A stretch of DNA of 64,000 nt, taken from Solibacteraceae bacterium. GTDB lineage: Bacteria; Acidobacteriota; Terriglobia; Bryobacterales; Bryobacteraceae. Position 1 is the stretch's first letter, and every line of letters starts with the position of its first letter. The position numbers and the translations under genes are program-made. The stretch lies in the NCBI GenBank assembly GCA_021324015.1, contig JAJPJX010000125.1:1-64000 (forward strand). The letters run 5' to 3'. This document shows, in pieces, positions 7,419 through 63,941 of the stretch. The notes under the pieces are model-generated. The model made no database searches and had not been told where the DNA came from. It was given only the letters and a program-made list of their open reading frames with translations.

Positions 7419-7431
7419 CGCCCACCCCAAA

Positions 7432-10113: not shown

Positions 10114-10299
10114 GAGTTCCCTACGATTCCAGTGATTCTTAATGACGCCAACCGCGTGCGAAAAGTTGCAAGAAAGAGGAGGCGTGAGGCGGATTGGGAA
10201 TTGTAGCCGCATTGGCGCCGTCCCGTCAAGCGCATTCTTAGCGTTGTCTTCGCGTTCTTCGCGTTTCCGCAGGGGCTGCACTATCATATAGAACCAGCC

Positions 10300-11814
10300 A
10301 TGAACCGACGACAGTTTTTGCAGAGCGGGGCGGCTCTCCCGATGGCTCCGGCCGCCCTGGCGCAATCCTCCGAAACCGGGTTTCGCGCGGGATTCGCCGA
10401 GCGGGACATCACGCCCGAACTCGGCATGGAGCAGCCGGGCGGCTACGGCAAAGCGTTTCACCACAAATTCCACGATGCCTGCAAGGTGCGCGCGGCGGTG
10501 TTCGACGACGGGCGCACGCGGGTGGCGCTGGTGGGGATTGACGCGCTGATGGTCCCGCGAGCGCTCGTGCTGGCCGCGCGCCGCGCCATCCACGAGCGCA
10601 GCGGCATCGCCGGAGAGGCCATCCTGATCGGCGCTTCGCACTCGCACTCTTCCGGACCCACCGGCATGATCCAGCCGGGGCAGTACGATTTCGCTTCGAC
10701 GCTGGTGCGGCGGCTGGCCTACGAGAAATCCTCCTGCGCCGACGCCGGCTATCTGCAGCGCGTGGAGACGGAGATCGTGGCGGCGGTGTGCCACGCGGAC
10801 AGCTTCCGCGAGGAGGCGCGCATCAGTTTCGGCTTGGGGCACGAAGACCAGGTAGCCTTCAACCGCCGCCTGCGCATGAAGAACGGCCTGACGTATTCGC
10901 ATCCGGGCAAGGGCAACCCGGACATCGCGGACTACGCCGGGCCCACAGATCCGCAGGTGGGCGTCATCGCCGCGTGGACCCGGGACGGCCGTTTGCTGGG
11001 CGCGGTGGTGAACTATGCCTGCCACGCGACCACTAATCCGGGCGGTATTTCGGCCAACTGGGTTCACTACCTGGAGCAAACTGTGCGAGGCGCCATGGGC
11101 GCGGATGTGCCGGTGGTTTTCCTGCAAGGCGCCTGCGGGGACGTAACCCAGGTGGACAACCTGAGCGCACACGGTGACCCGCCGCCGGAGCAGTGGGCGC
11201 GCTTCGTGGGGGGGCGGGTGGGTGCCGAAACCGTCAAGGTGCTGGTGGGCGCAGTGGCGGTGGACGGAGCGAAGCTGGACAGCCGGTCCCGCGTGCTGCG
11301 GATCAAGCGCCGCGTGCCCAGCCCCGAGCACGTGCGGCAGGCGATGGAGTTGGTGGAGCGCGACCCCAAGGAAGTGGGGGTCACCGAGTGGACCTTCGCC
11401 AAGGAGACGGTGTTGCTCGACGCCATGCTTCAGCGCGAGCCGGTGGTGGACGTCGAGGCGCAGGCCGTGCAGGTGGGCCCGGCGGTGTTCGTCACCAATC
11501 CGGCCGAGTATTTCTGCCAGTTGGGGCTGAACATCAAAGGCCGCAGCCCATTTCCCCTGACTTTTCCGGTGGAGCTGGCCAATGGCTGCGTAGGCTACGT
11601 GCCTACGGAAGAAGCCTTCGGCCCGCACGGCGGCGGCTACGAAACACGCCTCACCAGCTACAGCAACCTGGAGACTACGGCGGGCACGCAGATGGCTGAG
11701 GCGGGCGTGGGACTAGCGCGGCAACTCACGCCGGAGAAGCTGCCCGAGCGGCCCCCGGCGCCGCCCTTCCGCGAGCCGTGGTCGTACGGCCGGGTGCCGC
11801 CGCAGGTGAGCTGA
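10300..11814 (+). CDS. Exported neutral/alkaline ceramidase-domain protein (copy 1)
   Basis: A 504-residue protein with a Tat-like signal (NRRQFLQSGAALPMAP). It carries the neutral/alkaline non-lysosomal ceramidase N-terminal domain: the FAERDITPELG opening, GASHSHSSGP with the HxH pair, and NYACHATTNPGG with the Cys-His of the zinc site. The late sections (FPVELANGCVGYVPTEEAFGPHGGGYE) are also typical. True ceramidases are about 650-700 residues with a C-terminal Ig-like domain that is missing here, so the substrate may be another amide or ester. It is the first of three members in the window. The gene stands alone between the DksA-type gene and the KdpD-like sensor. Confidence 0.85.
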   Translation: MNRRQFLQSGAALPMAPAALAQSSETGFRAGFAERDITPELGMEQPGGYGKAFHHKFHDACKVRAAVFDDGRTRVALVGIDALMVPRALVLAARRAIHERSGIAGEAILIGASHSHSSGPTGMIQPGQYDFASTLVRRLAYEKSSCADAGYLQRVETEIVAAVCHADSFREEARISFGLGHEDQVAFNRRLRMKNGLTYSHPGKGNPDIADYAGPTDPQVGVIAAWTRDGRLLGAVVNYACHATTNPGGISANWVHYLEQTVRGAMGADVPVVFLQGACGDVTQVDNLSAHGDPPPEQWARFVGGRVGAETVKVLVGAVAVDGAKLDSRSRVLRIKRRVPSPEHVRQAMELVERDPKEVGVTEWTFAKETVLLDAMLQREPVVDVEAQAVQVGPAVFVTNPAEYFCQLGLNIKGRSPFPLTFPVELANGCVGYVPTEEAFGPHGGGYETRLTSYSNLETTAGTQMAEAGVGLARQLTPEKLPERPPAPPFREPWSYGRVPPQVS

Positions 11815-11987
11815 AGGCCCGCGACAAACCGCCCCCTCACGGTTGCGGGTCGGTCAGGGTCGTGAAAGCATCAGTAGCACCCAGACGAATCTCAAGGTTT
11901 TCCGAAGGAGCGGAACCTCACCTTTCCAAGTTCCCGAAATGGGGCCGGACGGACGGGTGTGATAAGCTCCGCAATAGGGGCAGCGCC

Positions 11988-13445
11988 ATGTTTCCAGTGC
12001 TCCTTTCCAGGGGACTTCGGGTCTGTTTATCCGCGGGAGTAATTGGGCTGTTGCTGGCCGCGGGCCTCTATTGGCACCACGTAAACACCACCAGCGTGGC
12101 GCTGGCCCTGGTGCTGCTGGTCTTCTCGATTGCCTTGCTGTGGGGATCGATCGAGGCCCTGATAGCGGCGTTTGTGGCCGGCCTGGGCCTGGATTACTAC
12201 CTTCTGCCCCCGAGGGGCTTCGGCTTGGGTGAGCCCCAGCACTGGCTGTCTCTGCTGGTATTTGCGGCGACCGCGCTGGTAACCGGTCAACTTTCGGCGC
12301 GTGCCAATCGCCACCGGACCGAGGCCATCCGCCGCCAGCAGGAAATCGAACAGCTATACCGGATCACGGATACTCTCTGGGAAGGCGAAAACGCCGGGGC
12401 CATTGTACAAAAACTGGGAAGTTCGTTGCGCGAGATTCTGGGGCTGGAAGCGGTGGCGGTCTTCGAGAAGGACACGGGACGCGTGTTCCGGTCGGGGAGC
12501 GGGGGCGAGCAGATCACCGAAGAGCACCTGCTCGAGGTGGCAGTATCCGGGAACCGCTTTCTGGACGCCGGCAAGCACGTGGCGGTCGAACCCGTCCGCG
12601 AAGGCGCGCAATTTTGGGGCAGCCTGGGCGTGGCGGGAGCGGCGGTGCCGGTCCGATTGCTGAAAGCCATCGCGGAACGCGTGGGCGCAGCCATCGGGAA
12701 GGCTCACGCCGCGGAGCGAGCCACGGCAGAGGCACTGGCGCGCCGCGCGGACGAACTGAAGGCCGCGATTTTCGATGCGCTGGCTCACGAAGCGAAAGGT
12801 CCGCTGGCTTCGATCGCTATAGCCGCCAGCGCGCTGCTCGCGGAACCCCAGGGCAGCGCGGAGCAGCAGCGTGAGTTGCTGGCCGTCATCAAGGAGGAGG
12901 CGCAGCGGTTGAACCGCTGGATCGACGAAGCCGCCCGGGTGAGCCGGACCGATGCGCGCCAAATTGCGCTGGACAAATCGCCGCGGGACGTGCGGGACCT
13001 GGTTTCCAGGGCCCTCGAAGGGCTGGGCAGCCAAGCGAGTGGGCGGTCGATCCGCCTGGAGATCGCGGAATCTCTCCCCATGGCCCTCTGCGACCGGGGA
13101 TTGATCCAGAAAGTGCTCGGCCTGTTGCTGGACAACGCGCTGAAGTACTCGCCCGCCGGATCGGCGGTTACGATCTCAGCGCACGAGGACCATGAAATGG
13201 AGATGATCGTGGTGAGCGTATCGGACGCGGGGCCAGGTGTTCCGGACGAGGAGAAGGCGCGTATCTTCGAGAGACACTACCGGGGAGCGCGGCACAGGGA
13301 GAGTGTCCCTGGGATGGGCGTGGGCCTGGCGAGCGCCCGGTACCTGGTGGAGTCGCACGGTGGGGAGATCTGGGTGACGGACCGGCCGGGCGGCGGCGCG
13401 ACCTTTCATTTCACGCTGCCTGCGGCCATCCGGGCGAGGGTATGA
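11988..13445 (+). CDS. KdpD-like membrane sensor histidine kinase (DUF4118-GAF-HisKA-HATPase)
   Basis: From the ATG at 11988 (AGGGG upstream) the protein has 485 residues. Four membrane helices (about residues 10-101) form a DUF4118 domain as in KdpD, followed by a GAF-like region, a HisKA helix with the phospho-acceptor His267 in LAHEAKGPLAS, and an HATPase_c domain (DNALKYSP, SDAGPGVPDEE, GMGVGLASARY). The large cytosolic KdpD N-terminal domain and the universal-stress domain are absent, and no kdpFABC lies nearby. It overlaps the response regulator by ATGA. It may sense envelope conditions for the neighbouring surface-protein locus; that link is inferred from position only. Confidence 0.9.
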   Translation: MFPVLLSRGLRVCLSAGVIGLLLAAGLYWHHVNTTSVALALVLLVFSIALLWGSIEALIAAFVAGLGLDYYLLPPRGFGLGEPQHWLSLLVFAATALVTGQLSARANRHRTEAIRRQQEIEQLYRITDTLWEGENAGAIVQKLGSSLREILGLEAVAVFEKDTGRVFRSGSGGEQITEEHLLEVAVSGNRFLDAGKHVAVEPVREGAQFWGSLGVAGAAVPVRLLKAIAERVGAAIGKAHAAERATAEALARRADELKAAIFDALAHEAKGPLASIAIAASALLAEPQGSAEQQRELLAVIKEEAQRLNRWIDEAARVSRTDARQIALDKSPRDVRDLVSRALEGLGSQASGRSIRLEIAESLPMALCDRGLIQKVLGLLLDNALKYSPAGSAVTISAHEDHEMEMIVVSVSDAGPGVPDEEKARIFERHYRGARHRESVPGMGVGLASARYLVESHGGEIWVTDRPGGGATFHFTLPAAIRARV

Positions 13446-14140
13446 AGGTCCTGGTGGTAGACGATGATCCTCAGGCCCGCCGCGTGCTGCGGACGGCGCT
13501 GGTCATCCAGGGGTTCGAGGTGAATGATGCGCGCAGCGGCGAGGAGGCCCTGGAGAAACTGCGGAAGGAGACGCCGGACACGATTCTTCTGGATCTCAAG
13601 ATGCCCGGCATGGGGGGCATCGACGCCTGCCGCCAGATCCGGGAACTGTCGGAAGTGCCGATCATCATCGTGTCCGCCAGGAATTCGACGGAGGACCGGA
13701 CGGAAGCCTTCGAGGCCGGGGCCGACCAGTACGTCTCCAAGCCGTGTGGAATTCAAGAAATCGTGGCGCGCATCCGGGCCGCGAAGCGGCGCGCCGATCT
13801 GGTGCGCTCGCCGGCCCTAAGTTTGGGCGAGGTGGAAGTAAACTTCGAGACGCACGAAGTGAAGCGCCCGGACGGCACCATGCATCTCACGGCCAAGGAG
13901 TTCAAGCTGCTGCATTTTCTCGCCTCCCGCGCGGGAGAGATCGTCTCGCACCGGCGCATCCTGCAAGCCGTGTGGGGACCCGACTATGGCGACGAGGTCG
14001 AGTATCTACGGGTGTGCATTAACCAACTGCGCAAGAAGATCGAGCTCGATCCGGCAAGCCCGGTCCACCTTCTGACCGAGCCGTCGGTGGGATATCGCTT
14101 GTCCTTGCCGCGCGCCGGCCGGTCCGCCCGGCAGGATTGA
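13442..14140 (+). CDS. OmpR/KdpE-type response regulator
   Basis: A 232-residue regulator with a receiver domain (acidic Asp8/Asp9, phospho-acceptor Asp51 in ILLDLKMPG, Lys in YVSKPCG) and a C-terminal winged-helix DNA-binding domain (LTAKEFKLLHFLASRAGEIV, VWGPDYGDEVEYLRVCINQLRKKIE, VGYRL). The closest type is KdpE. It partners the sensor kinase it overlaps. The YVSKPCG motif has Cys in place of the more common Phe or Leu. Two inverted repeats downstream (14167-14199 and 14958-14985) are possible binding sites for it or for another dimeric regulator. Confidence 0.92.
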   Translation: MKVLVVDDDPQARRVLRTALVIQGFEVNDARSGEEALEKLRKETPDTILLDLKMPGMGGIDACRQIRELSEVPIIIVSARNSTEDRTEAFEAGADQYVSKPCGIQEIVARIRAAKRRADLVRSPALSLGEVEVNFETHEVKRPDGTMHLTAKEFKLLHFLASRAGEIVSHRRILQAVWGPDYGDEVEYLRVCINQLRKKIELDPASPVHLLTEPSVGYRLSLPRAGRSARQD

Positions 14141-14166
14141 CTCTTCCGCGGGTAGGGCAAGCATAA

Positions 14167-14199
14167 AAGGAATCATAATGCCGTCCTTATGATTTCCTT
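14167..14199. promoter_or_regulatory. Inverted repeat upstream of the DUF4136 gene
   Basis: AAGGAATCATAA (14167-14178) and TTATGATTTCCTT (14187-14199) form a 12-base-pair inverted repeat with one bulged base and an 8-base loop. It lies 27 bases after the response-regulator stop and 43 bases before the DUF4136 ATG. It has no U-tract on either strand that would make a good intrinsic terminator, so an operator or mRNA stem-loop is at least as likely. Confidence 0.55.
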
Positions 14200-14241
14200 A
14201 GGGCGCCTCCATATGATTTTGACAGAGTGGAGGGAGATCCC

Positions 14242-14814
14242 ATGCGAGAAAAGCTCAAGATAGCGAAGGTTGCTCTGGCCCTCCTGGCAGGCGGCACGGC
14301 CTGGGCCCAGACGGTTCGCGTGAACTGGCAAACCAGCGCTCTATTCAGCGACTACAAGACCTACGAATGGAAACCCAGTAAAAAGCAAGGCAGCCACTTT
14401 TACGGACAGTGGATCCACAAGGATGTGGACATGGAACTAGCCAAAAAAGGCCTGACTTTGGCCCCACCCAAACAGACCCCGGACCTTTGGGTGATCTACC
14501 ATTTTGTCACCGACGAGGTAATGGACTCCGAGACTACCAGCGACGGATTCGGGTGGGGCGGCGGCCGCTGGGGCTGGTGGGGAGGATGGGGTGGATGGGG
14601 GGATGTAGGACCGGACATCAGCACGACCGAAACGCAGCCGCGCATGATGGGGATGCTTTCCGTCGACCTCGTGGATGTCAAGACGAAACGACTGGTCTGG
14701 CGCGGCCAGGCCACTGAGGATAGCCTCTCCAGCACCCAGAAAGGCGACGAAAAGCAGGTGCTCAAGTCGGTGGATAAGATGTTCGAGCAGTACCCGCCCA
14801 AGGAGAAGAAATAG
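14242..14814 (+). CDS. DUF4136 domain exported protein
   Basis: From the ATG at 14242 (AGGGAG upstream) the protein has 190 residues with a signal peptide (KIAKVALALLAGGTAWA). The rest is a DUF4136 domain, in which VNWQTSALFSDYKTYEW and LVDVKTKRLVWRGQATE are characteristic; the family is exported, often lipid-anchored, and of unknown role. A very Gly/Trp-rich insert (about residues 110-125, GWGGGRWGWWGGWGGWG) interrupts the domain. No lipobox Cys is seen. It opens the cell-surface locus that continues with the LPQTG protein, VWFA protein and sortase. Confidence 0.82.
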   Translation: MREKLKIAKVALALLAGGTAWAQTVRVNWQTSALFSDYKTYEWKPSKKQGSHFYGQWIHKDVDMELAKKGLTLAPPKQTPDLWVIYHFVTDEVMDSETTSDGFGWGGGRWGWWGGWGGWGDVGPDISTTETQPRMMGMLSVDLVDVKTKRLVWRGQATEDSLSSTQKGDEKQVLKSVDKMFEQYPPKEKK

Positions 14815-14957
14815 GGCTCAGTCGGATCACGGATTCCCCACGCTCCGGCCGGGGAAGGGCCCGAACCGCCTGGCTGCGTTCAGATCATCACAACGCACCG
14901 GCTTTTGAGGGAGGCCACTTGTGCGAAAGAACATGTTCCGGCATATCGGCGCGGGCC

Positions 14958-14985
14958 ATAAAGAAAAACATAAGGTTTTCTTTAT
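14958..14985. promoter_or_regulatory. Perfect AT-rich inverted repeat upstream of the LPQTG gene
   Basis: ATAAAGAAAA (14958-14967) and TTTTCTTTAT (14976-14985) are perfect inverted copies separated by 8 bases. The element lies in the 275-base gap between the DUF4136 and LPQTG genes, about 105 bases before the LPQTG ATG. It could be an operator, or a bidirectional stem-loop that ends DUF4136 transcription; the A- and T-rich arms and the lack of a GC core argue against a strong terminator. The rest of this gap shows no gene. Confidence 0.5.
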
Positions 14986-15089
14986 TCGCGGCTAATCCGG
15001 CGTGGCTACACTGCCGGGTGAAGACAGGCCCGTACACGCCGTGACAGAACCCGCGGGCAATCCTCTCAGGAGACAAAGGAGTAGCCGAA

Positions 15090-15794
15090 ATGAAGAACGT
15101 GCAAATCCTCGTTTTCGTCTGCCTTGGCATGCTCGGCGCTATGCTGCCGCAGGCCAAGGCAAGCGAGTCGAACCAAAAGACCATCTTCAAATTCAGCGGA
15201 CCCGTAGAGATCCCCGGGCAAGTGTTAAGTCCGGGTACGTACGTTTTCAAGCTGGCGGATTCGATGACCGATCGGGATGTGGTCCAAGTCTACGACAAGA
15301 GGGAAGACCACTTGTACGGCACGTTCCTGACAGTGCCGGACTATCACTTGAAACCGGCCGGTAAGTCAGTCCTCACGTTTGAGGAGCGGGCCGCTGGGGC
15401 TCCGGAAGCAGTCCGGGCGTGGTTCTACCCCGGCGACAATTACGGCCATGAATTCGTCTATCCCAAAGTGAAGGCGGTTGCCCTGGCCAAGGCCAACAAA
15501 CAGCCGGTGGCCTCCATGCCGGATGAGTTGACCACCAATACTACTAAACCCGCCCAGACGATGCAGGAGCCGCACGTAGTAGCAATGAAGCACGCGAAGC
15601 TGATGGCGCAGCAGCCGACCGAGGAGGAAGTGGAAATCGCCGAGGTTTTCCTGCTGCCCCCTGAGCATGGGGAGCCATCGGGGCTGCCGCAGACCGGCAG
15701 CATGCTGCCCATGGTTGGCCTCCTGGGATTGCTGTCCCTCGGGACGGCAGGGCTGCTGCGCTACGCCGGAGCCAGAATGGAGGAGAGAAGATAG
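15090..15794 (+). CDS. Secreted protein with C-terminal LPQTG sortase signal
   Basis: A 234-residue protein with an N-terminal signal peptide (cleavage near AKA, residue 24) and a complete cell-wall sorting signal at the C-terminus: LPQTG at residues 199-203, a hydrophobic run (MLPMVGLLGLLSLGTAGLL) and a basic tail (RYAGARMEERR). The mature part (TIFKFSGPVEIPGQVLSPGTY) resembles a small beta-rich domain seen in acidobacterial exported proteins; I cannot name it. AGGAG precedes the ATG. A class D-like sortase is encoded two genes downstream, so this is its probable substrate. Covalent anchoring in an organism expected to have an outer membrane is unusual. Confidence 0.85.
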   Translation: MKNVQILVFVCLGMLGAMLPQAKASESNQKTIFKFSGPVEIPGQVLSPGTYVFKLADSMTDRDVVQVYDKREDHLYGTFLTVPDYHLKPAGKSVLTFEERAAGAPEAVRAWFYPGDNYGHEFVYPKVKAVALAKANKQPVASMPDELTTNTTKPAQTMQEPHVVAMKHAKLMAQQPTEEEVEIAEVFLLPPEHGEPSGLPQTGSMLPMVGLLGLLSLGTAGLLRYAGARMEERR

Positions 15795-27804: not shown

Positions 27805-30219
27805 ATGGCTGGCCTTCTGCACGAATTCCGTGGCGCCGCGCGATCTCTTGCCAAATCGCCAGGCTTCAGCACCGTGACGGTTCTCACGCTCGCGTTGGGA
27901 ATCGGGGCGAATACGGCTGTGTTCTCCCTGCTGAACGCCGTGCTGCTCCGGCCTCTGCCGTACGCCGATCCCGAGCGCCTGGTGCTGGTTTGGGAGAGCG
28001 CCCCGTTTTTCGGCGTCGCAGACAGCCCGGTGTCGCCCGCCAATTATGTGGACTGGAAAACACGCGCCCGCTCATTCGAGCAGATGGGCGCTTTGGAGAT
28101 TGCGGGCTACCGACTTACGGGCGATGGTCCGCCCGAGCTGGTGTTGGGAGCGGTCGTCACGGCCGGCCTGTTCCGGGCTCTGGGCACGCGTCCGCTGCTG
28201 GGGCGGGTGTTCCGCGATGACGACGACCGGCTGGATGCGGCGAAAGTGGCCATCCTCGGGGAACCACTATGGCGGCGGCGCTTCGGCGGGGACCCGGAAA
28301 TCATCGGCAAGGCGATTCGGCTTGGCGAGGAGAAGCACATCGTGGTCGGCGTAATCGCCTCTGGAACCGAGCCACCCTCCCAGTATGTCAGCAAGTTGGG
28401 CGAGGTCTGGACGCCGCTCGGCGCCTCCTACACCCCGAAGCAATGGAACGAGCGAGGCCGCCACAACTGGATGGTGATCGCGCGCCTGAACCCGGGCGTC
28501 ACCCTGGCGCAAGCCAACGCGGAAATTCACGGCATCGGCCAGGCTTTGGCCCGCGAGTACCCGGAGACGAACGAGAAGGTTGGCGCGTTCGTAGCTCCGC
28601 TGCGCGACCACTTTGTCCGAGGTAGCCGGCACATCCTGATGCTGTTGTTCTGCACAGTTGCGTTTGTGCTGCTGATCGCCTGCTGCAACCTGGCAAACCT
28701 GTTGCTGTCGCGTGCCGCAAGCCGGAAAAAGGAGGTCAGCGTTCGCGCCGCACTCGGAGCCGGAACGTGGCAGATTGCGCGCCGGTTCGTTTGTGAAAGC
28801 CTGCTGGTTTCCGCTCTAGGCGGCGCGTTGGGACTTCTGCTCGCGACGATGACGTTTCAATTTCTGGCACACCTCGCTCCAGGAGATATGACTGGACTTA
28901 AGTCGCTAGCAGTGGACGTTCGCGTGCTGGGGTTCACTTCGGCGCTCTCCATCGCTGTGGCGCTTGCTTTCAGCCTCATTCCGCTTTTGCACGTCCGGCG
29001 GCTGGACCTGATCGATTCGCTGAAACAGAACGCCCGTACGTTGGCCTCCTCGGATGCGAACCGGACACGAGCATTGCTGGTCGGCTCGGAGGTAGCGCTC
29101 GCGTTTGTGCTGGCTGTCGGCGCAGCCCTGTTGATCCAGACTTTTACGAGGCTTCGGAGCGTGGATACCGGCTTCCGCACGCGCAACCTTCTCACGGTGG
29201 GACTACCCAGGCTGAGTGCGGCGCGCCCGGCTCTGTCAGAGATCGCAAGCTGGCAGCAGGAGATGCTGCGGCGAGTGGCAGCCATCCCTGGCGTGGTTTC
29301 CGCCGGGTTCACCAATCACGTTCCCATCGCGTTCAAAGGCGACATTTCCGGGGTGACTGCGGAAGGGCGGAATCCGCGGGACAGAGTTCAGTGCCGTTCC
29401 CGAGCGGCCGGTCCCGGATACCTGGCGACGATGGGCATTCCGGTCCTTCGAGGCCGCGACATTGCGGAATCCGATCGGGAGGGCACACCCCCGGTAGTGC
29501 TGGTGAACGAGACGCTGGCGCGCGAGTTGTGGCCGGACCAGGATCCGGTTGGGCGCAAGCTGATTTTCGAATCTGGCGTCTCCGTTCGCGTGATTGGCGT
29601 CGTGCGGGACATTCATCAGGACGGGTTGGACGCCGCGCCGAAGCCGGAGTTCTACATATCGTCGCTCCAGGCGGGATTCCCGTCCGGTTCGCTGGTCATC
29701 CACACCAAAGTCGAGCCCTCCAGCATCGCGGGGGCCGTACGGCGCGCCGTGTGGAGCGTGGATCCGGAGCAACCGGTGACTGACGTTTTCACGATGGATC
29801 AGATTCTCGACAAGGAAGTCTCGCAGCGCCGGATGCAGGGGCTGTTACTCACGGCGTTCGCGGCTCTTGCCCTGCTGCTGGCCGCCATTGGATTGTACGG
29901 AGTTCTGGCCTACTCGGTGGGCCGGCGGTGGTCCGAGTTTGGAGTGCGGATGGCGCTAGGCGCCTCGCCCGGGATGCTCCTCGGCCACATTGTGGCACAA
30001 GGGTTGGCGCTGACCCTGCTAGGGCTCGCAGCCGGAGTTGGCGCGGCCCTTGCGCTGTCGCGGCTGCTGGCGGCCTTCCTGTTTGGCGTACAGGCGACAG
30101 ACCCAGCGACCTATGCGATGGTGGCTGGGGTCATGCTGCTGACTGCCGGACTGGCCAGCTACCTGCCTGGGCGCCGTGCGATGCGGGTAGACCCTGCCGT
30201 CGCGCTAAGACAGGAGTAG
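27805..30219 (+). CDS. ADOP-type permease (duplicated MacB/FtsX module)
   Basis: From the ATG at 27805 the protein has 804 residues with two MacB_PCD-FtsX modules in tandem: the first opens SLAKSPGFSTVTVLTLALGI and ends with its FtsX part (LLFCTVAFVLLIACCNLANL), the second opens at LVGSEVALAFVLAVGAALLI and ends YLPGRRAMRVDPAVALRQE. This is the acidobacterial duplicated orphan permease family; no ATPase gene is adjacent, as usual. Its roles are not established; MacB-like export or signalling is assumed. A TTG six codons earlier is a weaker start. The second module is homologous to the 3' half of the chimeric gene at 61572. Confidence 0.92.
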   Translation: MAGLLHEFRGAARSLAKSPGFSTVTVLTLALGIGANTAVFSLLNAVLLRPLPYADPERLVLVWESAPFFGVADSPVSPANYVDWKTRARSFEQMGALEIAGYRLTGDGPPELVLGAVVTAGLFRALGTRPLLGRVFRDDDDRLDAAKVAILGEPLWRRRFGGDPEIIGKAIRLGEEKHIVVGVIASGTEPPSQYVSKLGEVWTPLGASYTPKQWNERGRHNWMVIARLNPGVTLAQANAEIHGIGQALAREYPETNEKVGAFVAPLRDHFVRGSRHILMLLFCTVAFVLLIACCNLANLLLSRAASRKKEVSVRAALGAGTWQIARRFVCESLLVSALGGALGLLLATMTFQFLAHLAPGDMTGLKSLAVDVRVLGFTSALSIAVALAFSLIPLLHVRRLDLIDSLKQNARTLASSDANRTRALLVGSEVALAFVLAVGAALLIQTFTRLRSVDTGFRTRNLLTVGLPRLSAARPALSEIASWQQEMLRRVAAIPGVVSAGFTNHVPIAFKGDISGVTAEGRNPRDRVQCRSRAAGPGYLATMGIPVLRGRDIAESDREGTPPVVLVNETLARELWPDQDPVGRKLIFESGVSVRVIGVVRDIHQDGLDAAPKPEFYISSLQAGFPSGSLVIHTKVEPSSIAGAVRRAVWSVDPEQPVTDVFTMDQILDKEVSQRRMQGLLLTAFAALALLLAAIGLYGVLAYSVGRRWSEFGVRMALGASPGMLLGHIVAQGLALTLLGLAAGVGAALALSRLLAAFLFGVQATDPATYAMVAGVMLLTAGLASYLPGRRAMRVDPAVALRQE

Positions 30220-56000: not shown

Positions 56001-56122
56001 CCCAGATCGGAGCCTTGAAAATCTTCCTTCCACGTGTAGGAAGACACGGCAGCTTGCGGGACGGCGGCCGCCATCGCCACGCAGGCGCACAACGCAGCTA
56101 GAAAAATCGACCTACTTCGCAT
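53030..56122 (-). CDS. Heparinase II/III family polysaccharide lyase-like protein
   Basis: A 1030-residue exported protein from the ATG at 56122 (GAGGTG upstream), overlapping the symporter gene by 11 bases. A signal peptide (IFLAALCACVAMAAA) is followed by a carbohydrate-binding-like beta sandwich (about residues 30-200), an alpha/alpha toroid (HPRLFFGPEDRDRLAARTRD, NTSNWIGHTVGGALVAAAA, YGEGVSYQEFDLESTG) and the C-terminal heparinase II/III beta domain (GPNFNHNHADQGSFLLRVFG and RYPRMADVLLSLSL). The NHNHADQGSF motif with the catalytic His is the family signature. It cleaves uronic-acid glycans by elimination. The symporter and dehydrogenases around it suggest import of the products. Confidence 0.9.
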   Translation of the reverse strand: MRSRSIFLAALCACVAMAAAVPQAAVSSYTWKEDFQGSDLGQFASYPPVQDVGYDPSLSPATGFGAPGGRALMRILKPSRTGEERFGFIRALDLVTAAKGSLTFSYRLDFARLGDTLEVGIAGSNAKRYAATVAVEGGEAWHAVHIPLARLLDPAGRAAPAHTGIEALFIVATLRKASADITYRFLIDDLRLEAARKMCFDVRTPRVVSIAHWPELFAAVNVESGRPIAVKAVAPLRLSKAECVVEDQDGRPVGGGELHDTAHEGVWSNDAVPAAGAGIYTLVLRGTAEDGRTISTCVRVLRRPATAAIHPRLFFGPEDRDRLAARTRDPKYAPIWQHLRERARLARGRRDWSHVPALFALLDPVYLLPTLPGYINIADSAGESVELNSLDAYLTDDAESRAAAKTALLAIARWNAWAPPWFPEHGQHTYYPAGQLTERVAFAYDLLYDRLTPDERGVVRGALREYGIARSYHEYVADNRILANTSNWIGHTVGGALVAAAAIWGDADDGDLPLQTNGLLRKFEDHLAASYLDDGSYGEGVSYQEFDLESTGLALTAIERVLGLNYWDRSYVKDSLAYPLATLAQPVRGSLDTGDSHSPSGYTSAPIVARLRDPVFAWYYDHFQHRSFHDFVFADLSLPAQPPSGPGSRYFARKGYVIFRTGWGEEDTLVLFRAGPNFNHNHADQGSFLLRVFGENLVREAGPAHYYQDPYYDSFFKQAAGHNTLLVDDDPESQEVADTQRFPALNRYPRMADVLLSLSLGAATAELEQVYRGRLRSYTRRILSAPPGYLVICDDLVADRTPTPFDWRVHLPDVAQVKTDGASAVYVGPKASLAVLALFPADAALRVESGHLPYSIFNPSAPQVAPPNPAILDIRTRAPASQTRFLVLLAHARSEADARAFVSSARRIDEAGWEGFETSGDHADLVLFRKEPAVGEAPYADWSTDAAAWLARRENGGDTLLAGQQVTALKRGGRVLFTSDRAVSFVAEQKGDHLDLTFNAPAAAKGEVARADGSLADWNVPAGQQHLTIR

Positions 56123-57857
56123 CGCCCGCACCTCGCAGCTTCCCGTTCACGCGCCTGTGCAGCACGTGAAAACCGGCGCCGATCAGGATCAGCGCCAAAC
56201 CCGCGCCCAGGTTGATGCCGCGCCCAAGCCCGGGGGGTTGCAGCGCGGCGGCGCCCCACAGCATCGCGCCGGTGGCCATGGTGATCCACCCCATCACCGG
56301 GAATGGCGAAAAGCCCTCGTCCGGCGCATCTGCTTTCCGCAGGTCAATGGGCGTTTCGAGGCGCGCGAAAAATGCGGAGATGCGCGCGCTCTCCTCCGGG
56401 CGAATGCGCTCCAGTTTCGTCACCAGCAGCATGGTGCCGAGCGTCACTGCGAAATTCGTGAGGATGCTGATCGCCTCGAAGTCATATCGCAGCCAGTTGG
56501 CGTCGATGCCCGGCTGCTTCGAAAGCACCAGCAGCTTGTAGAGGAACAGCCCGAAGCCGGCGACAAATCCGGCTCCCATGCCCGCCGCGGCTCCGCGCCA
56601 CGTGATGTGCCGGCTCAGCAGACCGGCCAGCATCGGAATCAGCATGGGGCCGACGAACAAACCGAATAAGGTCACCATGATTTCGAAAAGCCCCTTCGCT
56701 GCCGAGCCGACCAGGTACACTCCTGCGCACACGGTGATGGAACCCACCAGCAGCGTAGCCACGCGCCCCACCACCACCAGGCGTCTTTCGCTGGCATTCC
56801 GGTCGAAGAGCCGGTGATAGATGTCCTGGGTCAGCACGCTGGCCATCACGTTGTAGTCGGCGCTCAGCGTGGACATGGTGGCGGAAAACATCGCCGCAAT
56901 CATGAGCCCCATCAGCCCTGACGGCAGAAACCGCAGAGCCAGCGCCGCGTAGGTGTATTGCGGAGAATTGGGCGGCACCTCCAGCTCCGGCATCAGCGTC
57001 CGCGCGGCCATGGCCGGCAGGATGAACAGAGGCGGTCCCACGAGCTTCAACGCCATGGCCAGCAGGCCGGCTTTTCGCGCCGCCCGCTCATCTCGCACAG
57101 AATAAAACTTCTGGGCGAATGCCCAATTGCCGTTGTAGCTGAGCTGCACCAGAAGATAGAACGCGAACACGTAAAGCAGGGAGAAGGGCGCGTGCACCGG
57201 CGAGAGGAAACCTGCCTGCGCTCCCTGCCCCAGAATCGAGAAGGAGCCCATTCGGGAAAAAACCAGTGGGAACAGCACCGTCACGCCGAGCGTCAGGATG
57301 ATGAACTGAATATAGTCGGTGACCACCACCGCCCACAGCCCGCCCATAAAGGTGTAGAGCACCATGACGGTGCCACTCGCCAGCACGCTCATCTTCAGGT
57401 CGTACCCAAGTCCCGCGGAAACGAAGATACCGGTGGCGTAGATTTTCAGCCCGTCGTCGATGAGCCGCAGCGGCAGACCCGCCCAGGCCATCATCTGGCG
57501 AATCTGCGTGCTGTAACGGGCTTCCAGGAACTCCACCGGGCTGATGATGCGCGCCCGCCGCCAGCGCCCTGCCAGAAAAATGGTGCCCACCAGCATCGCC
57601 GCCGCGGAACTCCAGACCAAGGTGATGGCCACCATGCCGTACCGGTAGGCCATCTCGCAATACGCCACGAAGGTGAACGCGCTGAAGGCCGTCAGATAAA
57701 AGGACACCCCGGCCAGCCACCACGGAATACTGTGCCCCCCGGCAAAGTAATCGCGTGCGCGGCGCATGCGCTTCCAGAAGTAGATTCCGACAAACGCCAG
57801 GAGCACGAAATACCCGACGATCACGACGTGGTCGGCGGGATGAAGCGTTTTGGGCAT
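56112..57857 (-). CDS. Sodium:solute symporter (SSS family)
   Basis: A 581-residue inner-membrane symporter with about 13 helices. The start is MPKTLHPADHVVIVGYFVLL; later segments include FWKRMRRARDYFAGGHSIPWW, AVVVTDYIQFIILTLGVTVL, MIAAMFSATMSTLSADYNVM (the Na2-site helix) and LFVGPMLIPMLAGLL. The SSS family carries sugars, myo-inositol, sialic acid, amino acids and others with Na+. It overlaps the heparinase-family gene by 11 bases and follows the oxidoreductase by 16, so it is the probable importer for its breakdown products. Confidence 0.92.
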   Translation of the reverse strand: MPKTLHPADHVVIVGYFVLLAFVGIYFWKRMRRARDYFAGGHSIPWWLAGVSFYLTAFSAFTFVAYCEMAYRYGMVAITLVWSSAAAMLVGTIFLAGRWRRARIISPVEFLEARYSTQIRQMMAWAGLPLRLIDDGLKIYATGIFVSAGLGYDLKMSVLASGTVMVLYTFMGGLWAVVVTDYIQFIILTLGVTVLFPLVFSRMGSFSILGQGAQAGFLSPVHAPFSLLYVFAFYLLVQLSYNGNWAFAQKFYSVRDERAARKAGLLAMALKLVGPPLFILPAMAARTLMPELEVPPNSPQYTYAALALRFLPSGLMGLMIAAMFSATMSTLSADYNVMASVLTQDIYHRLFDRNASERRLVVVGRVATLLVGSITVCAGVYLVGSAAKGLFEIMVTLFGLFVGPMLIPMLAGLLSRHITWRGAAAGMGAGFVAGFGLFLYKLLVLSKQPGIDANWLRYDFEAISILTNFAVTLGTMLLVTKLERIRPEESARISAFFARLETPIDLRKADAPDEGFSPFPVMGWITMATGAMLWGAAALQPPGLGRGINLGAGLALILIGAGFHVLHRRVNGKLRGAGDAK

Positions 57858-57873: not shown

Positions 57874-58908
57874 TCAGAGGGAGGGCGGCGTGACCGCGCA
57901 GGTCTGGCCCGTGGCGAGCGACCGCGACACGGCATCCAACACCGCCGTCACCTGCCGTCCGTCGAAAGCTGTCACCTGCGGTTCGGTGTCGTTCAAGATG
58001 GCGCTGAGAAAATCGCCCAGGCACTCCACAAACGCGCCCCGCAGCTTGCCGAACACCTCGTTCGACAGGAACACCTTCGGGTAGCTGAAACGCTCCTCGG
58101 TGCTCATTTCAATGGATTCGCGCTTGCGGTCGAAATGCAGATGCCCGGCGCTGCCCAGCACCTCCACGAAGGAATCCACGATGGTCGGGAAGGTGTTGGG
58201 ATAGATCCACGCGGATTCGAACGTGGCGAACGCGCCGCTGGCGAACTTCACCTGCGCCTGGATCACATCGTAGGTATCCACTCCACGCGCCGTCAGCACC
58301 CCCTTCGATCCGTAGGCGTGCACCTCCACCGGCTCGCTGGCGAAGAACCAGCGCATCAGGTCGATATCGTGCGCGCCCAGGAAGTGCACCGGCGTCGATT
58401 GCGCCGCCCACTTGAGCAACTCCGTGGATACCCAGATGGTGTCGTTCTTGCGAGCGAATCCGGCCACCGGTTTTCCGATCGAGCCGTTCCGGATCGAAGC
58501 ATATCCTTGATAGTAGGAGGAGAGCCAGCGGTGGTTGAAGGCGACCTGCAGTTTCTGCCGGGGACGGCTGCGGCTCAGACCCAGCAGTTCGTCCGCCTCC
58601 GCCAGGTCCGTGGTGAAAGGCTTCTCGCAGAGCACGTGCTTGCCGGCTTCGAGCGCCTGCTTGACCGGCGTGTAGTGCGCGAAGTCCGGCGTCGCCACGC
58701 ACACGGCGTCCACGGGCGCTTCAGCAAGCAGACTCTCGGCGTCGCCATAGCGCCCGGCGACCTTGTACTTGTTTCCGATCTCTTCCAGGCGATCGGGCTT
58801 CGAGTCCGCGATAGCCGTGACCTCGGCCAGCGGATGAACCTGGTAGATGCGGGTATATTGCTCACCCATGGTCCCCAGGCCAATGACTCCGATCCGTACC
58901 TTATTCAT
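57874..58908 (-). CDS. Gfo/Idh/MocA family oxidoreductase (cluster copy 3)
   Basis: From the ATG at 58908, which overlaps the ceramidase-domain gene stop as ATGA, the protein has 344 residues. The GxGxxG loop is VRIGVIGLGTMGEQYTRIY; VCVATPDFAHYTPV, LCEKPFTTDLAEADEL (EKP) and HFLGAHDIDLMRWFF (active-site His and Asp) follow. It has no signal peptide. It is the third of three different dehydrogenases in this cluster, which suggests successive oxidation, epimerisation or reduction steps on a sugar or cyclitol. Confidence 0.92.
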   Translation of the reverse strand: MNKVRIGVIGLGTMGEQYTRIYQVHPLAEVTAIADSKPDRLEEIGNKYKVAGRYGDAESLLAEAPVDAVCVATPDFAHYTPVKQALEAGKHVLCEKPFTTDLAEADELLGLSRSRPRQKLQVAFNHRWLSSYYQGYASIRNGSIGKPVAGFARKNDTIWVSTELLKWAAQSTPVHFLGAHDIDLMRWFFASEPVEVHAYGSKGVLTARGVDTYDVIQAQVKFASGAFATFESAWIYPNTFPTIVDSFVEVLGSAGHLHFDRKRESIEMSTEERFSYPKVFLSNEVFGKLRGAFVECLGDFLSAILNDTEPQVTAFDGRQVTAVLDAVSRSLATGQTCAVTPPSL

Positions 58909-60215
58909 GGAATCAACCTCTGTTCGAGTTGCTGGATGGCCTCCAGCAGCCGCTCCGGGAAGTCCGGTCCGCATTTCGCGGAGACCACCTCGTATCCCCC
59001 GCCCTCATAGGCCTCCCGGCACGGCAGATAACCGACGTATCCGTTTGCGAGCCCCACCACGAAGAGCGGAACCCGCGCGGATTGCTTGGCGCTCAGCGCC
59101 ACTTCGACGAACAGTTCCCCGGGCACGGCTACGAAGAGGGCATCGTGGATGCGCAGGCCTTGCAGGCCGATGGGCAGCAGCCCATCCGCGTAACGGGCGG
59201 TTTCACGCGCGTAGAAGTCGGTGATTGAGCAATAGAGCAGTTCGGACCTGGCCCGCCGGTACTCCGCCGATGCGTCACCCGCGCTCTCCAGGCTCCGCAC
59301 CTTTTCCTCCGCCTCCGCCAGAGCCTTGGCCGTTTCCTCGGCAGGTGGATAGCGCTTCAGGGGAAGTTTCACCTCCAGCACCAGAGCCCCCAGTTCGAAG
59401 GAATCCCGCAGTTCCACCTCGGGTAGCACGGATAACACGGCATCCGCGAGCCGGTGTCCGAGTTCGGTCGCATGCTCGAAGGTGCGGCCCGGCGCGATGA
59501 CGCCGATAGCGCTCAACTCGGAGGAATGGCCCATGCTGATGTCCCCCTGCGCGCCGTTCGTGTACATGGCGAAGCTGTCCGGACCCAGCGCAGCCTCGAT
59601 GCGCGCCACCGCCATGTTCGGGAAATCGCCGGTGGCCAGCAGATTGTCCGGACCGAGCACGGTCGGATGGCATGCGTAATTGACCAGCACGCCCCGAGTC
59701 TTCCCGCTCACGTCCGCCACCCGGATGATTCCGACTTCCTCGTCCACAGGTCCGCCCGCGGGATTGCGGCGATTGACGCCGATGCCCGCGACCCGCCCCG
59801 ACCCGTGCCCGACCCGCGCATCGAAGCGATTCTCCCAGGCGCCCGCCACGGCATTCTCGATAGCGGCAGCCAGCCGCTCGATGTATCGCGGGTCCACTGA
59901 CTCATCCGGGTTGAAGAAGGTGCGGATCGTGACCGGCGCCGCGTGCGTGTGAGTACAGGCGACCATGAGGCTGCTCGCCCCAATCGGCACGCGCGCGGCA
60001 ATAGCGCGGCGCACCCTATTCACGAATTCGCCCGGAAGCGCCAGCACGTCGATGCTGACGATCGCGACCGCGGAGGAATCGTTCGCGAGGACGAGCGCAC
60101 GGACGAACAAATCGTCATGGACACCCGAGCAGACACCCTTGCGGGCCGCGAACCCCGCCAGCGAGGCACCCGCGGAAGGAGTGATGCACACTCTCTCAAA
60201 ACCGGCCTGAAGCAA
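58905..60215 (-). CDS. Neutral/alkaline ceramidase-domain protein (copy 3)
   Basis: The best start is a TTG at 60215, placed after AAGGAGG; the longer ATG frame from 60335 adds about 40 residues with no homology. The 436-residue product begins LLQAGFERVCITPSAGASLAG, the usual opening of the ceramidase domain, and has VACTHTHAAPVT (HxH), VNYACHPTVLGPDN (Cys-His zinc site) and FVVGLANGYVGYLPCREAYE. No signal peptide is visible, unlike the copies at 10300 and 26301, so it may act in the cytoplasm. It heads the nine-gene run and is divergent from the DegT-type aminotransferase. Confidence 0.85.
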   Translation of the reverse strand: MLQAGFERVCITPSAGASLAGFAARKGVCSGVHDDLFVRALVLANDSSAVAIVSIDVLALPGEFVNRVRRAIAARVPIGASSLMVACTHTHAAPVTIRTFFNPDESVDPRYIERLAAAIENAVAGAWENRFDARVGHGSGRVAGIGVNRRNPAGGPVDEEVGIIRVADVSGKTRGVLVNYACHPTVLGPDNLLATGDFPNMAVARIEAALGPDSFAMYTNGAQGDISMGHSSELSAIGVIAPGRTFEHATELGHRLADAVLSVLPEVELRDSFELGALVLEVKLPLKRYPPAEETAKALAEAEEKVRSLESAGDASAEYRRARSELLYCSITDFYARETARYADGLLPIGLQGLRIHDALFVAVPGELFVEVALSAKQSARVPLFVVGLANGYVGYLPCREAYEGGGYEVVSAKCGPDFPERLLEAIQQLEQRLIP

Positions 60216-60375
60216 AGGGCCCTCCTTGAGCCACCAGAATAGCAAAAAACGATAACATCCCCTGATTCTCTTGACAGATGCCGAGCAGCGGCTCGAACGC
60301 GAAATGAGATGTCCAAGTATGCTTCTGTAGTACACTGAAGGGCGAACCGAGAGCGATCCTCTCCAGGAGTCCGCG

Positions 60376-61575
60376 ATGCCATCTCTTGCCCTGCTGGGCG
60401 GGCCGCCTGTCCGCCGGAAACCCTTCGCCGCGTGGCCGGTTTTCGATGATTCCGAAAAGCAGGCCGTGCTGGACGTTCTGAACAGCGGCGTCTGGGGCGG
60501 CTACAGCCCCAAGGTTGCGGAGTTCGAGCGGCGATTCGCCGCCTTCCATGAGTCCCGCTTCGGTATCTCCGTTGCCAACGGCACGCTGGCGCTCGAAGCG
60601 GCTCTGGCTGCCGCGGGGATCGGACCCGGCGACGAAGTCGTCGTACCGCCCATCACCTTCATCGCGACCGCCACCGCCGTGCTGCGCGTGGGAGCCGTTC
60701 CGGTGTTCGCAGACATCGACGCCGCCAGCTACAATCTCTCGCCGCAGCGCCTCGCCGAGGCCATTACGCCCAAGACCCGCGCGGTGATCCCGGTGCATTT
60801 CGCCGGACACCCGGCCGACATGGATGCCATCCTCGAAATATCGGCCCGGCACGGGCTGGTAGTCATCGAAGATGCCGCCCACGCGCACGGCGCCTGCTGG
60901 CGTGGGCGCAAAGCGGGCAGCTTCGGCCACTTCGGCAGCTTCAGCTTCCAGCAATCCAAGAACATGACGGCGGGTGAGGGCGGTCTCGTGGCGACGAGCG
61001 ACGCGGAACTCGCCGAACGCACGCGCTCGGTCTGCAACCAGGGGCGCCGCACGGGGGGCGCCTGGTACGAACACGTGCGCTTGGGCAGCAACTACCGGCT
61101 CACGGGCTGGCAGGCTGCCGTGCTGCTCGCGCAACTCGAGCGGCTGCCGGCGCAGCTAGAAAAGCGCGCCCGCAACGCCTCCCTGCTCCACTCCAAGCTG
61201 CTTTCCACGGGCGTGTTGCTGCCGCCCGCCGTCGACCCGCGCGTCAACGTACACGGCTATTATCTGTACACGGTCCGCATGCGCCCCTCCGACCTCCCCA
61301 GGGACCTTTTTCTGCGCGCCCTGGCAGCCGAAGGCATTCCCGGCCTCGGAAGCTATCCTCACCCCATCTACACAAACAAGGTGTTTGACGGGTACCCACA
61401 CCGCCGCGGCGATTGTCCGGAAGCGGAGCGTTTCTGCCGCGAGTGTTTCTGGGTGTCCCACGAAATCCTTCTGGCGGAAGAGTCAGACCTCGCCGACTTC
61501 GTCCGCGCCGTGGAGAAGGTCCGCGATCAGGCCGGGGAACTCCTGGCAGGCGCCTCCCACGGGAGCGCGTCGTGA
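60376..61575 (+). CDS. DegT/DnrJ/EryC1/StrS family aminotransferase
   Basis: A 399-residue PLP-dependent sugar or cyclitol aminotransferase. The N-terminal LALLGGPPVRRKPFAAWPVF, GISVANGTLALEAAL, VIEDAAHAHGACWRGRKAGS and the catalytic Lys in FSFQQSKNMTAGEGG define the family, and the end (VFDGYPHRRGDCPEAERFCR) is typical of the StrS/scyllo-inosose branch. CAGGAG precedes the ATG. The oxidoreductases encoded on the facing strand are the usual partners that make the keto-sugar substrate. The chimeric gene that follows starts on a GTG overlapping its stop. Confidence 0.92.
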   Translation: MPSLALLGGPPVRRKPFAAWPVFDDSEKQAVLDVLNSGVWGGYSPKVAEFERRFAAFHESRFGISVANGTLALEAALAAAGIGPGDEVVVPPITFIATATAVLRVGAVPVFADIDAASYNLSPQRLAEAITPKTRAVIPVHFAGHPADMDAILEISARHGLVVIEDAAHAHGACWRGRKAGSFGHFGSFSFQQSKNMTAGEGGLVATSDAELAERTRSVCNQGRRTGGAWYEHVRLGSNYRLTGWQAAVLLAQLERLPAQLEKRARNASLLHSKLLSTGVLLPPAVDPRVNVHGYYLYTVRMRPSDLPRDLFLRALAAEGIPGLGSYPHPIYTNKVFDGYPHRRGDCPEAERFCRECFWVSHEILLAEESDLADFVRAVEKVRDQAGELLAGASHGSAS

Positions 61576-63941
61576 AGAGGCGAGCGTTCTTCGGCTTAGC
61601 GGGCCTGGCGGCGGCTCCGGCAATCGCTCCGCCCGTGCAGGCGGCGCCCGCCCCCGGGCTGCTGCCCCTCCGACAACTGCGCGATCAGTACTACTTCGAC
61701 CTGTTCGAAGATTTCCTGCCTTTCGTGGACAAGCACGTCCTCGACCGGCAATACGGTGGCTTCTTGTGCCACACCGATCGTGACGGCACGAACCTCAGCG
61801 GCCGCAAAACGACCTGGTACGAAGGCCGCGGCATCTGGGTCTATTCGTTCCTCTACAATCACTGCGGAAAGCAGCCGCAGCATCTGAAAGTAGCCCGCAG
61901 ATCGGTCGAGTTCATCCTTTCCGCAAAGCCCAAGGACGAAGATACGCTTTGGCCGGTGACCTTGACGCGCGACGGCAAACCCGAGACTCCGCCCGCGACC
62001 GCCATCTACGGCGACCTCTTCATCGCCGAAGGGCTCGCGGAGTACGCGCGCGCCACCGGCGAACGCAAGTATTGGGACATGGCCAAACGCCTGGTGCTCA
62101 AGTGCGTCCGCATCTACGACCGGCCGGATTACGAACCTGGTATCGTCGCCAGCTATAGCGGACCCGTGGCTCCTCCCATGTCCGGCGCCAGAATCCAGGG
62201 CGTGTCCATGGTGCTCATCCGCGCGCTCGGCCCCATGCTGGAACAGCGCGCCGACCCGGGACTCCAGCCGATTCTGGACCGCGCTCTAGATGCGGTGATG
62301 AACCGCCACTATAACCCCGAATTCGGACTCAACAACGAGCTTTTGGAACACGACTACTCGCGGCCCCGCAACGTCCTCGCGCAGTTCGTTTACACCGGGC
62401 ACGCCATTGAGACGCTCTGGATGGTGGCCTACGAATCAGCGCGGACGCGCAACAAGAGCCTGTTCGACCTCGCCGCCGAACGCTTCCGGCGCCACGTGGA
62501 AGTATCCTGGGACGGCGTCTACGGTGGCGTCTTCCGCAGCCTGAATCACGTGGACCGCAACCAGTGGGCGTTGGACAAAGTGCTCTGGGCGCAGGAAGAG
62601 GTCCTCATCGGCACGCTCCTGATCTACGAGCACACCGGCGCTCCCTGGGCAGCGGAAATGTTCACGAAAATGAACGACTACGTGCGCGCGAAGTATGTGC
62701 TTCGTCCGCACGGCTATGCCCTATGGATCGTGAACGGCGACCGGAAGGTCACCTACGAGCCGCACACCGCCCGCCTCGAGGTCGCGCTTTCCCTGGTGCT
62801 GCTGGCCGGCGCGGGGCTGCTTATCCGGAGCGTCACCCGAATGGAATCCGCCTCCCTGGGTTTCCGGCCAGATCATCTGCTCAGCCTGCACCTCACGCTG
62901 CCGAAGGAAACCTATTCGGGTCCCGTGCGGATACTCCAGTTCTACGGGCGGCTCACCAATCGTGTTGGCAGCCTGCCGGGCGTGGAAGGATCGGTTCTGA
63001 CGTCTTTTGGCCCTCTACTGTGGCCGGGAACCGAGCCGGTCGACGTGGAGGGCCAGCCTGCGCCGCCCGCGAAGGTGGCTTTAGGCGATACCGGCAAGCA
63101 TTCCATTGGCGTCGGATATTTCAAACTGCTCGGCATCCCGCTGTTGCGCGGCCGCGACTTCGATGAGGGAGACCGCGCGGGTTCGGAGCCGGTAGCGGTG
63201 GTCAACGAGGCGTTCGCGCGGCGCTACTTCCCGGACCGGGACGCCCTGGGAAAGCACGTAAGGATCGGTTTTCCGCTGGAGAAGCAGCCCTGGCTCAAGA
63301 TTGCCGGCGTGGTTGGTAATACGCGGGGGCCCACGGTCTTTCGGGAGATGGCTTGGGTCACGGGCCCATATTTGTACCGGCCCTTGGCGCAGGCGCCTTC
63401 AAACGAGGCTAACGTGCTGGTGCGGTTCTCGGGCGCCGGAAACAGCTTGGCCTCTGGGCTGCCGCAAGCCGTATCCGGACTGGACCCGAGCTTGCCTCTG
63501 GGACCCGTGGGGCTGGTGACTGTGTCCATTGCGGAGAACCTGAAGTACCCGCAGTTCCGGGCCGGCGTGCTCTCCCTGTTTGGCGGCATGGCATCGCTGC
63601 TGGCGGCTATTGGCATCTATGGCGTCGTCGCCCGGATGGTGGTGAGCCATACGCGCGAAATCGGCGTGCGGATGGCTGTGGGCGCGACGCGCGGCCACGT
63701 CCTGCGCCTGATCGGCAGGCAGGGAGCCGTGCTCATACTTCAAGGCGCGGCCCTTGGATTGGCCGCGGCATCAATCTTGAACCGCAGCTTGGGCAGCCTG
63801 CTATATGAAACCGCTCCAGCCGATCCCGTCACCTTTTCGCTGGTCACCTGCGTATTGTGCGGCGCCGGTATGTTGGCCACGTATATCCCGGCGCGGCGTG
63901 CGGCAAAGCTGGATCCGCTGGTGGCGATCCGGCACGAGTGA
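61572..63941 (+). CDS. Chimeric AGE-family epimerase fused to the second half of an ADOP permease
   Basis: The GTG at 61572 overlaps the aminotransferase stop (GTGA) and opens a 789-residue frame. Residues 1-401 are an N-acylglucosamine 2-epimerase-like (alpha/alpha)6 barrel with a Tat-like leader (VKRRAFFGLAGLAAAP), TWYEGRGIWVYSFLYNH, NNELLEHDYSRPRN and GDRKVTYEPHTAR. After residue 401 the text becomes LEVALSLVLLAGAGLLIRS, the first helix of the second MacB_PCD-FtsX module of an ADOP permease, and continues to LDPLVAIRHE. The last 20 or so epimerase residues and the first ADOP module are missing. The frame is open throughout. A deletion that joined two neighbouring genes is the likely cause; whether the product works is unknown. 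Confidence 0.85.
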   Translation: MKRRAFFGLAGLAAAPAIAPPVQAAPAPGLLPLRQLRDQYYFDLFEDFLPFVDKHVLDRQYGGFLCHTDRDGTNLSGRKTTWYEGRGIWVYSFLYNHCGKQPQHLKVARRSVEFILSAKPKDEDTLWPVTLTRDGKPETPPATAIYGDLFIAEGLAEYARATGERKYWDMAKRLVLKCVRIYDRPDYEPGIVASYSGPVAPPMSGARIQGVSMVLIRALGPMLEQRADPGLQPILDRALDAVMNRHYNPEFGLNNELLEHDYSRPRNVLAQFVYTGHAIETLWMVAYESARTRNKSLFDLAAERFRRHVEVSWDGVYGGVFRSLNHVDRNQWALDKVLWAQEEVLIGTLLIYEHTGAPWAAEMFTKMNDYVRAKYVLRPHGYALWIVNGDRKVTYEPHTARLEVALSLVLLAGAGLLIRSVTRMESASLGFRPDHLLSLHLTLPKETYSGPVRILQFYGRLTNRVGSLPGVEGSVLTSFGPLLWPGTEPVDVEGQPAPPAKVALGDTGKHSIGVGYFKLLGIPLLRGRDFDEGDRAGSEPVAVVNEAFARRYFPDRDALGKHVRIGFPLEKQPWLKIAGVVGNTRGPTVFREMAWVTGPYLYRPLAQAPSNEANVLVRFSGAGNSLASGLPQAVSGLDPSLPLGPVGLVTVSIAENLKYPQFRAGVLSLFGGMASLLAAIGIYGVVARMVVSHTREIGVRMAVGATRGHVLRLIGRQGAVLILQGAALGLAAASILNRSLGSLLYETAPADPVTFSLVTCVLCGAGMLATYIPARRAAKLDPLVAIRHE

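Follow-up and report, generated by a model that had tools for sequence, protein, structure and literature searches.

We analyzed a 64,000-nucleotide stretch of DNA, hereafter the window, from a Solibacteraceae bacterium (positions 1 to 64,000 of contig JAJPJX010000125.1, assembly GCA_021324015.1). Near its right-hand end lies a gene in which an AGE-family epimerase runs in frame into the second half of an ADOP permease. We found that the missing counterparts – the first half of an ADOP permease and an AGE tail – are fused to each other on a second contig (C108) of the same genome, and that both fusions are joined at the same hexamer, CTCGAG. The two contigs likely record one reciprocal, base-exact exchange of 3′ parts between an AGE gene and an ADOP gene. 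As its cause we favor, on circumstantial grounds and with a probability of about 0.55, self-restriction at two CTCGAG sites followed by rejoining of the ends to the wrong partners. In what follows, C125 is the window's contig, L numbers denote loci, and G numbers denote genomes of relatives.

An AGE–ADOP fusion gene in the window

The gene is an open frame at 61572-63941 on the forward strand, with a GTG start, 789 codons and no internal stop. Pfam recognizes GlcNAc_2-epim (PF07221) at residues 63-391 of the product, MacB_PCD at 513-618 and FtsX at 669-782, and residues 402-789 align to positions 422-803 of the NCBIfam ADOP model TIGR03434 (model length 803). The score of 70.8 bits against PF07221 (cut-off 23.4) places the protein among the AGE barrels. 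The change from AGE to ADOP falls at Leu402-Glu403, encoded by the codons CTC GAG at 62775-62780. Among the matches listed, AGE relatives end at residues 398-404 (one partial match at 339) and ADOP relatives begin mostly at 399-404, a few at 385-395. These domain matches and match ends, together with the frame, bear out an earlier note, made from the DNA alone, that had described an uninterrupted 789-codon fusion of an AGE epimerase with a second ADOP module.

Frame, Pfam and relatives define the epimerase head as residues 1-403 (61572-62780, forward strand), ending before the C-terminal ENYHHPRH-type motif. The ADOP second module (62775-63941, forward strand) consists of one helix, MacB_PCD, and FtsX with three helices, according to Pfam, TIGR03434 and a simple hydropathy scan. 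The AGE tail and the first ADOP module are absent from the gene.

Among the matches listed, the fusion occurs in 1 of 101 related genomes, which is the window's own; the others match one half. A 201-residue query centered on the junction found some match in 322 of 399 genomes of the class, and among the matches listed the only full-length one was again in the window's genome. The match in G271 overhangs the junction by 29 residues, and the gene concerned (L058) proves to be a normal AGE that retains its tail. Some ADOP matches start up to ~60 residues before the junction, as in G434 (44-199), where the open frame is of ADOP length. On these counts we rejected an established AGE–ADOP architecture, which the earlier note had offered as an alternative.

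A reciprocal fusion carries the missing parts

The ADOP model matched the window's genome (8.23 Mb in 214 contigs) at 69 places, 34 of them above the family cut-off. Two orphan ADOP first halves end at model positions 423-424, one on C189 and one on C108. We rejected the C189 half as the reciprocal partner: it is cut off where its contig ends (5545 of 5545), and that contig shares no word of at least 16 bases with C125 on either strand.

The C108 gene (58417-59811) encodes 464 residues. Its ADOP first module (C108:58417-59706), delimited by TIGR03434 and by alignment to a relative described below, matches model positions 1-423. The protein reads as ADOP up to Glu430, continues in frame with NYHHPRHLMLNLLALDRMIARGGKPSGLLEGAPG and then stops. 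The equivalent place in AGE relatives reads RVENYHHPRHLML or variants; judged by this likeness, the C108 tail is the AGE tail absent from the window gene. The junction, at C108:59701-59706, is the identical hexamer CTCGAG, read CTC GAG as Leu-Glu just as in the window gene. Most CTCGAG sites on C125 and C108 are read in this way, so it is unremarkable that both products are in frame.

The fused pieces are complementary on both sides. A scan of GTDB contigs, in which the entries closest to the window's genome may be missing, returned a single locus carrying a relative of the ADOP parent: L021, on contig QHXW01000254.1 of an Acidobacteria metagenome-assembled genome. In its ADOP, residues 13-438 match the C108 piece (57.0%) and residues 448-820 the window piece (54.5%), the register continuing from one to the other. 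From this one relative we infer that both pieces derive from a single ADOP gene. Similarly, the AGE head and the C108 tail align on L022 in one register, with Glu403 of the head and the Glu of the tail both falling on residue 494. The two parents share exactly 6 bp, CTCGAG, with zero matching bases on either flank, and as judged against relatives neither lost or gained anything across the joint.

The earlier note had also placed the junction at CTCGAG as a sequence common to both parents, which holds. It had taken the AGE tail and the first ADOP module to be gone, which is true of the window gene; both are present, joined, on C108. Because they sit fused there, the exchange was reciprocal and not a deletion.

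An XhoI-family restriction system and end-joining genes in the same genome

CTCGAG is the recognition site of XhoI. Because the junction is this hexamer, we searched for the XhoI endonuclease family, the sole endonuclease family covered. A member (PF04555) lies at C166:14415-15149, scoring 261.8 bits against a cut-off of 25, and a PF01555 N6_N4 methyltransferase gene stands 5 bp away, so that the two form an adjacent pair. None of 14 control genomes has the family. The endonuclease keeps an E-F-K sequence, as would be expected in active sites of this type. PaeR7I belongs to the same endonuclease family; a study of that enzyme gives CTCGAG as its specificity (PMC3031569). Ku and three-domain LigD genes are present in the genome as well, providing for end joining.

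In these bacteria, XhoI-family endonucleases (L040-L049, L050) pair with two different neighboring methyltransferase motifs, NPPYVRQ or TSPPYWTL. Among the best 10 of 41 loci, TSPPYWTL occurs in a nearby frame at four (L046-L049) and NPPYVRQ at four (L040-L042, L045); neither occurs at L043 or L044 within the short stretch covered.

Self-restriction and crosswise re-sealing as the favored mechanism

We propose that one AGE and one ADOP gene of the same genome would have exchanged their 3′ parts at a common CTCGAG, yielding the AGE head with ADOP module 2 in the window and ADOP module 1 with the AGE tail on C108. Most likely the cell's own XhoI-family type II endonuclease would have cut both sites (C^TCGAG, leaving 5′-TCGA ends), for instance at a time of incomplete methylation, and Ku/LigD or an ordinary ligase would have sealed the cohesive ends to the wrong partners. 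On one chromosome the outcome would be an inversion if the genes lay in opposite orientation, and otherwise a split or exchange. That the enzyme made the cuts, and that an inversion was the form, we infer rather than read from the sequence.

The pattern by which a restriction-mediated exchange would be recognized is present: both products are joined exactly at an intact recognition site and nothing has been lost, judged against relatives only. According to 6-mer counts on C125 and C108, a chance 6-bp match would be CTCGAG with a probability of 2.2e-4 and any palindrome with a probability of 0.040. A genome holds on average ~2-4 restriction-modification systems (PMC3488263), and we estimate the chance of hitting the site of an encoded enzyme at about one in a thousand, an estimate made after seeing the site. 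Loss or disturbance of PaeR7I/XhoI-type systems is reported to break the chromosome, and their movement to accompany rearrangement (PMC3031569, PMC3874152).

Several points weigh against restriction as the cause. Both junctions are known from assembled contigs alone, and recognition of CTCGAG by the C166 endonuclease is putative, assigned from its family. PF04555 is shared by 38 of 299 other related genomes, some copies fragmentary or broken, which makes the presence of the family by itself a one-in-eight coincidence. The C166 methyltransferase carries TSPPYW, usually an N4-cytosine motif. It thereby differs in type from the PaeR7I methyltransferase, an N6-adenine enzyme (PMC3031569), although four of the ten XhoI-family loci described above share its motif. 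The same laboratory study of PaeR7I describes rearrangement joints unrelated to PaeR7I sites. The PaeR7I system thus resembles the present case in its hexamer and in its endonuclease family, but differs in that its joints bore no relation to the enzyme's sites, whereas the natural exchange here lies on CTCGAG in both products.

 None of the 42 other CTCGAG sites on C125 and C108 shows a domain switch, and there is accordingly no sign of widespread self-cutting: 24 of these sites fall within a domain or an alignment that continues across them (two of them in repeat domains, and weak on that account) and 18 are uninformative. The scan covered 31 of 37 site-bearing reading frames; the other six are the two fusions plus four frames that are short or overlap others. 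Nor is CTCGAG strongly avoided, either genome-wide (2369 sites) or on C125 and C108 (44 sites against 55.9 expected). Finally, the right-hand side of either parental locus is kept in no relative examined. The picture is that of a single event and not of a genome scrambled throughout.

Restriction systems have been suspected of shaping genomes by breaking host DNA. Natural joints placed on an enzyme's own site are hard to recognize, since an exact exchange leaves the surrounding sequence unscarred; the swapped genes described here betray the exchange from both sides. A limited open-access set of the literature yielded no natural example of restriction-linked joints. More tentatively than the mechanism itself, we suggest that the two contigs may hold a natural, base-exact footprint of a genome's own type II enzyme, in which two genes were re-sealed crosswise into two reciprocal in-frame fusions and a permease was split into complete halves that possibly still pair. 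If reads confirm the junctions, self-restriction and end joining would be able to create new fusion genes together with a major rearrangement in a single step. A simple search rule would also be at hand – to look for pairs of complementary half-genes whose joint is a palindrome matched by an enzyme of the same genome.

Alternative explanations

The strongest rival, though an unlikely one, accepts a real and reciprocal exchange but ascribes it to illegitimate recombination, either microhomology-mediated or of the topoisomerase type, with a merely coincidental match to the usual site of an encoded restriction enzyme family. A six-base overlap is usual for microhomology joints, Ku/LigD are at hand, and ~13% of related genomes (38/299) have the XhoI family in any case. 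Flanking bases are usually lost in microhomology joining, however, whereas both parents keep register with their relatives across the joint, and a random 6-bp match would rarely be CTCGAG (~2e-4) or even palindromic (4%).

We consider it improbable that the two contigs were cross-joined during assembly, with both genes intact in the organism. The assembly is fragmented (214 contigs), its ADOP paralogues are numerous (34 above the cut-off), and other ADOP genes are cut by contig ends (C189, C128, C5) or by frame breaks (C87, C103). The tetranucleotide composition of the four arms flanking the junctions is mutually consistent; the short C108 arm is the least so, within the range of size-matched control windows. 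This agreement shows that the arms belong to one genome, not that the joints are correct, and is compatible with a misjoin inside that genome. Yet the AGE and ADOP parents share 6 bp only, far below the word lengths used in assembly, and assemblers do not normally join on six bases. A chimera would need two reciprocal misjoins at one hexamer, and the joints lie 10.0 kb from the end of the 72.8 kb C125 and 3.7 kb from the end of the 63.4 kb C108.

A site-specific invertible switch, in which a recombinase toggles both genes as in phase variation, is highly improbable. Tyrosine recombinases do make conservative reciprocal exchanges around a 6- to 8-bp core, but the inverted or shared arms expected around such a crossover are absent: dyad matches number 1 and 4 of 14 at the two junctions, against a mean of 4.1 at the 42 other sites, and similarity between the arms does not exceed that seen in 440 other CTCGAG pairs. 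We rejected a recombinase-driven invertible element on this comparison. Least credible of all is the earlier note's reading, in which neighboring AGE and ADOP genes lost the DNA between them through a deletion at microhomology, which the common CTCGAG would suit but which the reciprocal product on C108, made of the supposedly deleted parts, contradicts.

Predicted properties of the two fusion products

The start of the window gene overlaps the stop of the upstream DegT gene by 4 bases, and since it lies within the DegT end the two are probably made together. The epimerase part is probably inactive. An HxPR-type motif present in the C108 tail and in relatives is absent from the window protein, which resembles the AGE superfamily (PF07221) in its barrel but lacks the C-terminal motif holding the equivalent of His373 of 6f04. 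The best solved relatives of the head are 6f04, 2gz6, 8bry and 1fp3, and the HxPR motif of the full-length L024 enzyme aligns with FHVPR of 6f04, a Nostoc enzyme. His373 lines the 6f04 active site, and the structural report describes the catalytic roles as debated (PMC6333288).

The hydropathy scan places four helices in the window permease part (404-422, 662-680, 718-736 and 754-772), four in the C108 gene and eight in the intact L021 ADOP. Because the helices split four and four, the cut falls between the two ADOP modules; on paper, both half-permeases are complete and could still pair. The two parts together follow the ADOP model (1-423 on C108, 422-803 in the window) but differ from a curated ADOP in lying on two genes, each about half the model. 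With one module each, the window fusion (382.7 bits) and the C108 fusion (417.5 bits) stay below the TIGR03434 two-module cut-off of 622.3 bits. The earlier note had pointed to conflicting topology, a Tat leader placing the epimerase outside while the first ADOP helix normally runs outward from inside, and this puzzle persists if the putative N-terminal leader works.

Gene neighborhoods of the junctions

Directly upstream of the fusion lies a DegT/DnrJ/EryC1/StrS aminotransferase gene (60376-61575, forward strand); a DegT gene also adjoins AGE in L028 and L029. Three genes of a conserved AGE neighborhood lie to its left on the reverse strand: 58905-60335, presumably neutral-ceramidase-like (57.6% to L024); 57874-58974, which we take to be a Gfo/Idh/MocA-type oxidoreductase (73.5% to L024); and 56112-57857, presumably a sodium/solute symporter (72.4% to L024). 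Around the AGE gene of L024 are ceramidase-like, Gfo/Idh, symporter and heparinase-like genes; DegT and ceramidase-like genes accompany AGE in L028 and L029, and L057 holds weaker relatives of three of these neighborhood genes. All five gene types (DegT, ceramidase-like, Gfo/Idh, symporter, heparinase-like) stand left of the window junction, and their recurrence near AGE in relatives marks that side as the native AGE locus.

To the right of the window junction, past the window end, lie GH2 and sugar transporter genes, which would belong to the former ADOP locus. To the right of the C108 junction stands a GH20 gene on the opposite strand. This side would come from the former AGE locus, where a hexosaminidase (GH20) next to an N-acylglucosamine epimerase would make sense. 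No relative examined pairs GH20 with AGE: the C108 GH20 has no match at ≥35% identity in AGE loci L022-L032 and L034 and none at ≥30% in L055-L061. No AGE or ADOP gene adjoins any of the five GH2 orthologues (L063-L067) within flanks of up to 1.5 kb. Synteny thus supports the AGE left side only and is silent on the other three sides, and comparing skew among the four arms did not separate an inversion from another form of exchange.

Further AGE and ADOP loci were seen in passing. In L030 (G068, 9577-15552), five AGE-adjacent genes are syntenic with C108:17066-21875, ~38 kb from the AGE tail, and at least two of them encode a branched-chain amino acid type ABC transporter. G033 carries two AGE genes ~8 kb apart (C23:218346-228944; L022 and L023), each 60% identical to the window head. 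L021, home of the closest relative of the ADOP parent, holds two adjacent ADOP paralogues in divergent orientation (3158-5605 and 5858-8320), and the window itself contains a second, complete ADOP gene at 27814-30216. C189 ends exactly at the boundary of two ADOP modules, cutting another ADOP gene (C189:4262-5545, L035), perhaps because ADOP paralogues are alike at that boundary. Elsewhere in the genome, ADOP genes are each split over two frames at C87:29335-31783 and C103:7312-9650, and one lies in three pieces at C162:23489-25389.

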